Shown one piece after another: positions 34,083-37,575 of a DNA stretch of 64,000 nt. Each line of letters begins with the position of its first letter. Within the stretch, counting starts at the first letter, position 1. A program made the position numbers and the translations under genes. Source of the stretch: Erysipelotrichaceae bacterium (GTDB lineage Bacteria > Bacillota_I > Bacilli_A > Erysipelotrichales > Erysipelotrichaceae). The notes below the pieces were generated by a model. That model made no database searches. It was given only the letters and a program-made list of their open reading frames with translations, and had not been told where the DNA came from. The stretch covers positions 124,001 through 188,000 of the forward strand of contig JAAZCQ010000037.1 in assembly GCA_012513225.1 (NCBI GenBank). Reading direction: 5' to 3'.

Positions 34083-34225
34083 TGTGCTGCCCTCCTAGTA
34101 ATATAAATTTAACACGTTTTAATGAAAATGACTTTTCAAATGATTTAAATATAAATACTAACTATTAGAATTTGCTTATTATTGATAAAGCAAGTAAAAT
34201 ATTCTTATTAAAAGTGAGGATTAAT

Positions 34226-36415
34226 ATGGCTAACCAGTTTCCAAATAAATTAATTACTTTAAGAAAGCATTTTAATTATTCTCAACAAGATATTGCAGAA
34301 ATAATGGGTGTACCTGTTGCAGAGTATATGAAATGGGAAAATGGAAGTAAATTATGTACAATATCACAACTTAGTAAGTTGGCTGATACCTTTAAAGTAA
34401 CATTAGATGAATTATTTGATAATTCAATTGAAATTACTCTTCCTGTATTAGAGCTTGAAAATAGTATAGAAATACCTTTTCAAAACGCTTTGGGCAAAAA
34501 TATACCAAATATAACTACTGAGAATATTATAACTGATGATATTTTTGAAACTGAAGAAGTTAATCAAACTAGCAGTTTGGATAAAACTATAGTTACAAGA
34601 ATAATTACTGATAATACTTTAGAAGTTATTGAACCTGAAGAAACCATGGTACTTAAAAAACCTAAGGTTACAATTGAACCTAAAAAAGAATCAAAACCAA
34701 AAACAAAGGACAGTAAAAGTGTTAAGAATAATAAAAATTTAGTTATTTTAGCATCTGTAGCTGGGGTAGCATTATTCAGTGTTATATTTTACTTCTTATT
34801 TTTTAATAGCGGAAAAAATAGTATTAACGATATTAGCAATTTAAATAGGTTGGTTGCGGCTAAAGAATATTCATTATACCTATCAAGTGAAGGAAATATA
34901 GTGAGTCATGGTAATAACCCTAGCACAACAAATTTTTTACATACAATACAAATAAGTGCAAAAGGTAAAACTGCCTTAGGATTAAATAAAGATGGTACTG
35001 TTGCATGTAGTGGAACTGATTGTGATAGTGTTAAAGACTGGGAAAAAATTAAGATGATTTCTGCAAGTAATAATATATTATTAGGTTTAACTGAAGATAA
35101 AACAGTAATGTGTAGTGGAAGTAATTGTAATGTAGAAGAGTGGGAAGATGTTACTTTTATACATGCTTCTGATGAAGGTGTATATGGAATTAGTGAAGGA
35201 AAGTTACTATATTCAGGAACATCAAATATAAATTCTAAAATACAAAGTGTTAGTGGAATTCAATCTTTAAATACAAGTTCAACATATTTAACATTGCTTT
35301 CTAATACAGGAACAGTTGAAGTTATTCCTTTAGGAAGTGCTTCAACACCAATTACTAATACATGGACTAATATAACTCAAATTGCTACTGGTAGTGATTT
35401 TGTGGCAGGCCTTAGTTCTAATGGAAATGTAAGTATAGTTGGAAATGAAGAAATTGTAGAAGAAGTTTCTAAATGGACTAATATAAAATATATAGCAGCT
35501 TATGACAATTATATTATTGGGATAAATAATAATAATTTAATGGTAGGAGCTGGTGATAATACATATGGACAATATGAAAACAATAGCATTACACCTACTG
35601 AAAGTAGCGATACTTTAACTAAACTTGATAAAGTTTCTAATGTTAAGTTTTCAGAGAGTGATAAAGTATTGACTATTACATGGGATAGTGTTGCTAACGC
35701 TGATTTTTACCAAGTATCAGTAAATATTTTAGGAAATTATACAGTTAAGACACAAACAAATAGTTTGAAGATTGATTCTAGTAAATTAAGCAGTAATACA
35801 AATTATATGATTAGTATTGTTTCAAGTTCTAATAATGAAGCAGAGTATGAATCAAGTGATGCATACGTTATTAATTATCAATATATAGGTGCAACACCTA
35901 CGCCAGAAGTAAAACAATATAGTGTTATATTTTATGATTATGATGGTAAAACTGTTTTAAGTGAACAAAAAGTTGATGAAGGTTCAAATGCAATAGCTCC
36001 TGCAGATCCTAAAAGAGATGGTTATACATTTATGGGCTGGAAAGGTGATTATTTTAATATAAATAAAGATACTAAGATTTATGCAACCTATGATAAGGTT
36101 CAAGTAGCTACATATAAGATAGTATTTAAGAATTTTGATGGTAGCATTATTACTAGTATGGTACTAGAACAAGGTGCAGAAGTTAATCCACCAAAATTAG
36201 AAGGTAGATTAAATTCTATAGTATCTTGGAATCCACAAGTAGAGACAACAGCAACAAGAGATATTACATATAGTCCAATATATGTTTGTACTATATATAA
36301 TTCTGATGGAAATATATTACAACCTGATGGAAATGGTGATTGCTCATGTCCAAGTGGTACAAAGCTAGATGGAAATAAGTGTATAGTAGATGCTAATCCA
36401 GAAGGCACTAATTAG
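34226..36415 (+). CDS. Membrane-anchored HTH protein with RCC1-like, FnIII and InlB-type extracytoplasmic domains
   Basis: In order: a XRE-type HTH at residues about 6-62 (ITLRKHFNYSQQDIAEIMG...), a charged linker to about 168, one membrane segment at about 171-193 (VILASVAGVALFSVIFYFLF), about six RCC1-like propeller repeats at 205-455 (pattern W-x-NI-x-IA...GL-x-x-DGTV-x-x-G; two carry CSGTDC and CSGSNC), a fibronectin III domain at about 470-550, two InlB/Flg_new-type repeats (GYTFMGW) at about 560-690, and a Cys-containing tail. The layout puts the DNA-binding part inside and the rest outside, like a one-component receptor. Function is inference. ATG 34226 follows GTGAGG. AGGAGG after its stop leads to the next gene. 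Confidence 0.75.
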   Translation: MANQFPNKLITLRKHFNYSQQDIAEIMGVPVAEYMKWENGSKLCTISQLSKLADTFKVTLDELFDNSIEITLPVLELENSIEIPFQNALGKNIPNITTENIITDDIFETEEVNQTSSLDKTIVTRIITDNTLEVIEPEETMVLKKPKVTIEPKKESKPKTKDSKSVKNNKNLVILASVAGVALFSVIFYFLFFNSGKNSINDISNLNRLVAAKEYSLYLSSEGNIVSHGNNPSTTNFLHTIQISAKGKTALGLNKDGTVACSGTDCDSVKDWEKIKMISASNNILLGLTEDKTVMCSGSNCNVEEWEDVTFIHASDEGVYGISEGKLLYSGTSNINSKIQSVSGIQSLNTSSTYLTLLSNTGTVEVIPLGSASTPITNTWTNITQIATGSDFVAGLSSNGNVSIVGNEEIVEEVSKWTNIKYIAAYDNYIIGINNNNLMVGAGDNTYGQYENNSITPTESSDTLTKLDKVSNVKFSESDKVLTITWDSVANADFYQVSVNILGNYTVKTQTNSLKIDSSKLSSNTNYMISIVSSSNNEAEYESSDAYVINYQYIGATPTPEVKQYSVIFYDYDGKTVLSEQKVDEGSNAIAPADPKRDGYTFMGWKGDYFNINKDTKIYATYDKVQVATYKIVFKNFDGSIITSMVLEQGAEVNPPKLEGRLNSIVSWNPQVETTATRDITYSPIYVCTIYNSDGNILQPDGNGDCSCPSGTKLDGNKCIVDANPEGTN

Positions 36416-36428
36416 GAGGTTATTTTAG

Positions 36429-36647
36429 ATGAGTGAATATATGATGAATGATAAAACATGGTATTATCTAAAAAATGGACAAAAAGAAGGACCTTTTAAT
36501 GAAAGCGAAATAATAAAATTAATAAAAGTTGGTGTTTTAGAAGCTGAAGATCATATATGGATGTTGGATTTAAAAGATTGGGTATTAGTAGATAATTCTT
36601 TATTTAGTATATATATGCCAGTAAAGGAAGAAAATGAAAAAAATTAA
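36429..36647 (+). CDS. GYF_2-domain protein
   Basis: The 72-residue protein is almost entirely one GYF_2-like domain: TWYYLKNGQKEGPFNESEII, then GVLEAEDHIWMLDLKDWVL, giving the W-Y-x-x-x-x-G-x-x-x-GPF...W pattern. Such domains bind peptides or sit beside membrane proteins. It has no signal peptide. TAGGAGG precedes the ATG, 13 bases after the HTH protein gene, and its end overlaps the next gene, so the three are likely one operon. Confidence 0.7.
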   Translation: MSEYMMNDKTWYYLKNGQKEGPFNESEIIKLIKVGVLEAEDHIWMLDLKDWVLVDNSLFSIYMPVKEENEKN

Positions 36648-37341
36648 TTTTGGGAAATATGTATATTTATATATATTACTCTCATTCATTTTTTCACTCT
36701 TTTTTATAATAATTAGAATACATTTTGCACCTGCTGAAATATTACCTGGAATAGTGATGCAAAATATAAAAAGTGATTATTATTTAATGTTGCTACAATG
36801 TCTTTTAGGTTTATCAATATTCTTTTTGCCTTCAATTATAGAAAAAAAGTTTAATATAAAAATCCCAAATAAATTAAACCTTGTATATGTTATATTTCTA
36901 TATTGTGCAATTGTATTAGGAGAAGTAAGAAATTTTTATTTTCAATTTGAGCATTGGGATAGTGTATTGCATGTATTTAGTGGAGGAATGTTAGGAAGTA
37001 TTGGATTATCTATTGTATCGTTATTAAATGATTCAGATAAAACAGAAATTCATTTGACTAATAAATTTGTATGTATATTTGCGTTTTGCTTTGCGGTTAC
37101 ATTAGGAGTTTTTTGGGAGTTTTATGAATTTAGTATTGATTATTTATTAGGAATGAACATGCAAAAATTTATGCTTGAAGATGGGACATTACTTGTAGGA
37201 CAAGCAGCACTTATGGATACAATGAAGGACTTATTTATCGATACCGTAGGAGCTTTTGTAGTAACATTCTCTGCATTTTTCATAATGAAATATGATGAGT
37301 ATTGGTTATCCTCTAAACAATTATTGAAAAAAGAATTGTAA
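36634..37341 (+). CDS. YjdF/DUF2238-type membrane protein
   Basis: The 235-residue protein has about six membrane segments. The DUF2238 marks are visible: FQFEHWDSVLHVFSGGMLGS near residue 107, then GVFWEFYEFSIDYL and the late DTMKDLFIDTVGA. The acidic and His residues in these motifs face the same side as in a metal or lipid-active membrane enzyme, but no activity is known to me. The ATG lies inside the end of the GYF_2 gene behind AAAGGAAG. Third gene of the HTH-membrane protein operon. Confidence 0.75.
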   Translation: MKKINFGKYVYLYILLSFIFSLFFIIIRIHFAPAEILPGIVMQNIKSDYYLMLLQCLLGLSIFFLPSIIEKKFNIKIPNKLNLVYVIFLYCAIVLGEVRNFYFQFEHWDSVLHVFSGGMLGSIGLSIVSLLNDSDKTEIHLTNKFVCIFAFCFAVTLGVFWEFYEFSIDYLLGMNMQKFMLEDGTLLVGQAALMDTMKDLFIDTVGAFVVTFSAFFIMKYDEYWLSSKQLLKKEL

Positions 37342-37384
37342 TACTAATTAAAACTATGCTATTTTAAATAAGTAAACTAAATAA

Positions 37385-37575
37385 TGAAATAGTAACTAAT
37401 ACAAATAAAAGAGAAAATCTGTATGGTGAAAAGATTTATAAAATTAGTGAATGCATCATTATGGGAATGATTGAATTAAAGTAGGTCATTACGAGTAGCT
37501 CGCGTTAAGAGTATTGAGAAGTAAAAAAAGTGGGACCACGCAAAAGCGTCTTTTTATAAGGCGTTTTTTATTTTA
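37385..37575 (+). promoter_or_regulatory. T-box leader of cysS
   Basis: The conserved T-box core appears as AAAAAGTGGGACCACGC (TGGGACCACG at 37531-37540). It is followed by a terminator: AAAAGCGTCTT (37542-37552) pairs with AAGGCGTTTTT (37558-37568) and T. A TGC (Cys) triplet at 37452-37454 in GAATGCATC is the likely specifier codon, in agreement with the downstream cysteinyl-tRNA synthetase. Uncharged tRNA-Cys would stabilise the antiterminator and let cysS and its operon be read. The 5' end of the leader is approximate. Confidence 0.8.

Follow-up and report, generated by a model that had tools for sequence, protein, structure and literature searches.

A conserved membrane-held XRE protein with an RCC1-type propeller ectodomain and a GYF_2 partner gene in Erysipelotrichaceae: a candidate transmembrane transcription regulator

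The analyzed window, a 64,000-nucleotide stretch of Erysipelotrichaceae DNA, encodes a bitopic protein (P) that joins an XRE helix-turn-helix (HTH) head through a linker and one membrane helix to an RCC1-type propeller, an FnIII-like domain and InlB-type repeats (Table 1). P, whose domain order, predicted propeller, single membrane helix and conserved pairing with a small GYF_2 gene come directly from computation, represents a real, conserved and apparently undescribed protein family. The best supported, though unproven, reading is that P would be a surface sensor acting directly on transcription, that is, a transmembrane one-component regulator; we estimate the probability of this reading at about 0.5.

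Table 1. Features of the P locus in the window.
Feature	Coordinates	Strand	Support
Promoter of P, TTGCTT-N17-TAAAAT	34172..34200	+	Kept in two same-genus genomes
P, 729-aa bitopic protein: HTH - linker - TM - RCC1 propeller - FnIII - InlB-type repeats	34226..36415	+	
XRE helix-turn-helix of P, aa 1-68	34226..34429	+	HTH_3 E 8e-11; helices pLDDT 90-96
Single membrane helix of P, aa 172-193 in the model (169-196 by hydropathy)	34739..34804	+	
Seven-bladed RCC1-type propeller of P, aa 205-455, predicted outside	34838..35590	+	Pfam, model, structural matches
FnIII-like domain of P, aa 463-555	35612..35890	+	fn3 in relatives, profile match, model strands
InlB-type (Flg_new) repeats of P, aa 560-690	35903..36295	+	Pfam, same-genus comparison
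GYF_2 protein, 72 aa, constant partner of P, no TM segment	36429..36647	+	Pfam GYF_2 E 3e-10
DUF2238-like membrane protein, 235 aa, occasional neighbor only	36634..37341	+	Sub-threshold Pfam match

An initial annotation of positions 34226-37341 had described the open reading frame, its start, its domains and its neighbors as we find them. In addition to HTH_3 (E 8e-11), P of the window matches the Pfam families RCC1_2 in four stretches (E 2e-16) and Flg_new in one repeat (E 2e-8); FnIII gave no Pfam match in this protein itself. Elsewhere in the family, fn3 is matched by 13 of 46 members, and the sequence profile of the family, which independently recovers RCC1, BLIP-II, fibronectin and XRE chains, also matches fibronectin/tenascin chains. 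All 46 aligned members contain both HTH_3 and RCC1_2. One hydrophobic segment is present in 58 of 59 P sequences, and the remaining sequence has one extra weak segment; a TM segment is thus found in 59/59 sequences scanned, and P joins a DNA-binding-type domain and a membrane helix in one protein. Since a Lys-rich stretch precedes this helix, the positive-inside rule predicts a cytoplasmic HTH. The InlB-type repeats are a genus-level feature, and the C-terminus varies across the family. A PASTA-like C-terminus, suspected by eye in some members, received no support from Pfam among the 46 members. Members with a long linker (window P, aa 110-160, and L057-L073) appear by eye to repeat a short motif (LDKTIVTRI, LGDTIVAP, EETMVIKKP), which to the eye resembles the phospho-threonine sites that FHA domains recognize or that PASTA kinases create.

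In an AlphaFold2 model of P, built with a 46-row alignment, the HTH helices reach pLDDT 90-96; a disordered linker leads to the membrane helix and on to seven blades (aa 209-443, pLDDT mostly >90), with FnIII-like and InlB-like strands at the end. This confident prediction bears out the propeller postulated earlier, and with RCC1_2 in 46/46 members identifies it as RCC1-type and seven-bladed. Among solved structures, residues 205-457 come closest to UVR8, plant CRINKLY4 ectodomains, BLIP-II and other RCC1-like domains (Z about 17-25 over all of these, about 21-25 for the RCC1-like domains that identify the fold). Propellers that bind proteins or serve in receptors are thus among the nearest folds (BLIP-II, Z 23.2; CRINKLY4 ectodomains, Z 24). 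The two CSG-x-x-C pairs that had been noted in the propeller repeats do exist, as CSGTDC (261-266) and CSGSNC (296-301). The first pair is confined to the genus of the window and one further locus (L059), and the second is family-wide (C301 in 59/59, C296 in 53/59). With 2.85 bits per column the HTH is the most conserved domain of P, followed by the propeller (2.36), FnIII (2.26) and the linker (0.80), with the C-terminus lowest (0.71).

The same domain order recurs among the 41 relatives searched: two genomes of the window's genus have it (64% and 53% identity), as do three further genera. At a threshold of E 1e-18 or better, 137 of 273 Erysipelotrichaceae genomes contain a P-family match, spread over 15 of 60 genera; 13 of these 15 have full-length P, and the other two (G272, G283) gave partial matches only. 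A named collection comprises 59 P loci, all from Erysipelotrichaceae or unplaced Firmicutes MAGs, of which we retained 58 after leaving out an end fragment (L109). Cultured carriers include Lactimicrobium massiliense and Anaerorhabdus furcosa. In class-level (395) and phylum-level (392) genome samples, which also include members of the family, we found no full-length homologue outside Erysipelotrichaceae; matches there are limited to either the HTH with the TM or the RCC1 region. A chance arrangement of domains, which the initial annotation had set out as the alternative, is not borne out, since the model does show the propeller, the domain order is kept among relatives, 58 named loci and 137 genomes carry the family, and the GYF_2 gene stays with P.

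The GYF_2 gene lies at most 25 bp after P in 57 of 58 loci and overlaps it in 44, at distances between -104 and +20 bp as called. The sole exception is L102, where a VTT/DedA-like gene takes this place. Among the 41 relatives, short GYF_2 frames are confined to those with P. PF14237 is matched by 36 of 44 partners, and the structural model of the GYF_2 protein resembles GYF domains: its top 16 matches are GYF-domain entries except for three TIC/TOC-TIC complexes, with weak E values of 0.001-0.8. With regard to binding of proline-rich peptides, residues of the G-P groove are missing in many members. An adjoining partner gene is also a feature of some transmembrane transcription regulators (TTRs), and the two proteins may be in contact.

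Of the proposed three-gene unit, only this pairing stood. The DUF2238-like gene cannot be regarded as a fixed partner, because it adjoins the P unit in 7/58 loci and is missing from the two same-genus genomes (G001, G002); it is also absent from G019 and is present in genomes without P. Its product has about six hydrophobic segments and scores 18 bits against the DUF2238 model (Pfam cut-off 26.4). P is located among housekeeping genes, with cysS downstream in 48 of 59 loci and gapA upstream in about 15. Between the P unit and cysS, the window contains a candidate T-box leader (37376-37556, E 2e-16, 73.8 bits vs the 93-bit Rfam cut-off). In G001 (L022:621-5946), P and GYF_2 are followed by genes for a C-type-lectin-like secreted protein and glutamate dehydrogenase in place of cysS, indicating that the unit moved or that the region was rearranged. 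PADLOC returned only weak HTH matches and no defense assignment.

We turn to the question as to whether the head is of a DNA-binding type. It belongs to HTH_3/HTH_19 in 46/46 members and its best families are repressors (HTH_3, RstR), while HTH_25 is not matched at E up to 1 in window P and up to 0.01 in the 46 members. Five residues, R13, K14, Q20, E38 and N39, do not vary, three of them (R13, Q20, N39) in 59/59. Judged by spacing, R13, Q20 and N39 probably correspond to Arg10, Gln17 and Asn36 of C.Csp231I, an XRE protein that uses these residues for contacts with the DNA backbone (PMC4321490). In the recognition helix, the positions that commonly make base contacts differ between P genera. 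The net charge of the HTH is about zero, which is uninformative as a test of DNA binding since cytosolic XRE proteins are similar.

Upstream of P, TTGCYT-N17-TAAAAT and the region of the ribosome-binding site persist in the two same-genus genomes, and nothing else is clearly conserved; in particular, this comparison revealed no conserved dyad in 34083-34225. An autoregulatory operator candidate that overlaps the window promoter (dyad TTGCTT-N10-AAGCAA) is lost in both genomes and was rejected. The proposed binding of the HTH to 34083-34225, which may nevertheless occur, therefore finds no comparative support, because only the promoter and ribosome-binding site region are kept. In one large clade (L074-L114), an extended -10 box (TGnTANAAT) of the P gene ends about 6 nt before the start codon, which suggests a leaderless mRNA; the P gene of the window species has a normal ribosome-binding site.

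Regulation of transcription by P is consistent with the conserved architecture, the invariant residues of a repressor-type HTH, the confidently predicted propeller, the pairing with GYF_2 and the fact that TTRs are common. Against it stand the lack of a conserved dyad, the variable base-contact positions and the ability of XRE heads to bind protein, as in RodZ. Under this reading, the propeller, FnIII and variable C-terminal domains would be located outside, in the zone of the cell wall, where the ectodomain may bind a surface protein, a peptide or a wall component. Binding of this ligand would alter the oligomeric state of P or its position across the single membrane helix, and the altered state would set whether the cytoplasmic XRE head binds its operator at putative target genes. 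The GYF_2 protein, presumably co-translated with P, may be a cytoplasmic co-component that binds the head or the linker and tunes the stability or activity of P, similar to ToxS or TcpH but from inside.

Single-pass DNA-binding receptors with an outside sensor are a known and widespread class: the majority of surveyed bacterial species contain TTRs, of which 56% cross the membrane once; HTH is the predominant domain type, and several TTRs come with a partner protein (PMC10269533). The initial suggestion of an unknown receptor type was therefore too strong, and what looks new is the propeller ectodomain together with the cytoplasmic GYF_2 partner. Among open-licence papers, we found no description of a receptor combining RCC1 and HTH, of a bacterial GYF partner of a receptor or of a GYF_2 co-component of a TTR. 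CadC, ToxR/ToxS, TcpP/TcpH and VtrA/VtrC share with P a cytoplasmic DNA-binding-type head, one membrane helix, an outside sensor and, in several cases, a partner gene. In contrast to P, with its XRE head, seven-bladed propeller with FnIII and partner without TM segment, CadC, ToxR, TcpP and VtrA combine a winged HTH head of the OmpR type with different periplasmic domains, and such partners as they have work outside or at the membrane. BcrR, the bacitracin sensor of Enterococcus, is likewise a one-component membrane transcription regulator from a Gram-positive bacterium (PMC3968067), but senses through four membrane helices and lacks an extracellular domain (PMC13384398, PMC3968067), whereas P has one helix and a large ectodomain.

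The main rival explanation, which we consider possible but doubtful, is that P serves as an envelope scaffold similar to RodZ. The HTH would then bind cytoplasmic proteins instead of DNA (the division or wall-synthesis machinery, or GYF_2), and the propeller would bind penicillin-binding proteins or wall material on the outside, thereby coupling wall synthesis to the inside. RodZ provides the precedent of a bitopic XRE-HTH protein with a beta-rich outside domain, the HTH of which binds MreB and not DNA (PMC6946637). BLIP-II, the closest bacterial propeller, binds beta-lactamases and has been proposed to function in wall remodeling (PMC9146315), and the housekeeping surroundings of P would also suit such a role. 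We called true RodZ by HTH_25 at E below 1e-8 and true MreB by matches above the Hsp70 level, and on grounds of length and score we assigned 600-aa frames that match MreB at about 1e-21 to Hsp70. RodZ is missing in 9/13 genera with P vs 9/47 without (Fisher p 0.001), and MreB in 9/13 vs 12/47 (Fisher p 0.007), in counts read by hand from tables and with statistics that ignore shared ancestry and genome incompleteness, so the association itself is uncorrected for common descent. Yet the head of P is HTH_3/HTH_19 and not the HTH_25 of RodZ. Since nine genera with P have no MreB match above the Hsp70 level and four have P together with RodZ and MreB, we can exclude a strict replacement of RodZ and conclude that P is not an MreB adaptor, although it may still serve as a scaffold.

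Less likely still, P could act chiefly at the surface, as an adhesin or a binder of the wall, with an HTH that only anchors the protein or represses its own gene and with no signal received from outside. Surface proteins typically carry repeats like the FnIII, InlB-type and other variable C-terminal ones of P, and the poorly conserved C-terminus fits this picture. However, the HTH is the best conserved domain, unlike a spare anchor, a self-operator is not conserved upstream of P, and a cytoplasmic GYF_2 partner is kept almost throughout. 

Returning to the receptor, the fold of its propeller also invites comparison with plant receptor kinases. CRINKLY4/ACR4 have an RCC1-like seven-bladed propeller as ectodomain (Z about 24), but the resemblance is one of fold only (about 15% identity), and they carry a kinase inside and no HTH. 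BLIP-II (17-18% identity) is a secreted bacterial propeller of the same type but, as a soluble beta-lactamase inhibitor, has no membrane or HTH part. Tentatively, P and GYF_2 might form an undescribed two-protein envelope receptor in which the propeller, used by analogy like the ectodomain of CRINKLY4, directly sets the activity of the XRE head through a GYF adaptor, and which might be a main wall sensor in lineages that have lost MreB and RodZ. As a putative receptor, P stands for a conserved family that combines a propeller ectodomain with a small, constant partner, in gut bacteria with little-studied signaling. If P does act on transcription, propeller sensors would join the repertoire of membrane-held transcription regulators, and GYF_2 domains would gain a testable role in bacteria. 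If it is a scaffold, P would be a candidate for envelope organization in Erysipelotrichaceae without MreB and RodZ.

A 590-aa lipoprotein-like protein with collagen-like repeats (L026:4755-6527, G004) has only the InlB-type repeat region in common with window P. Three loci from Erysipelotrichaceae without P (L136:1621-3468, minus strand; L138:2283-4109 and L139:2249-3865, plus strand) encode, within an opp operon, an OppC-type oligopeptide permease whose first outside loop carries an insert of about 230-290 aa with RCC1-like repeats, and this insert may be a propeller.
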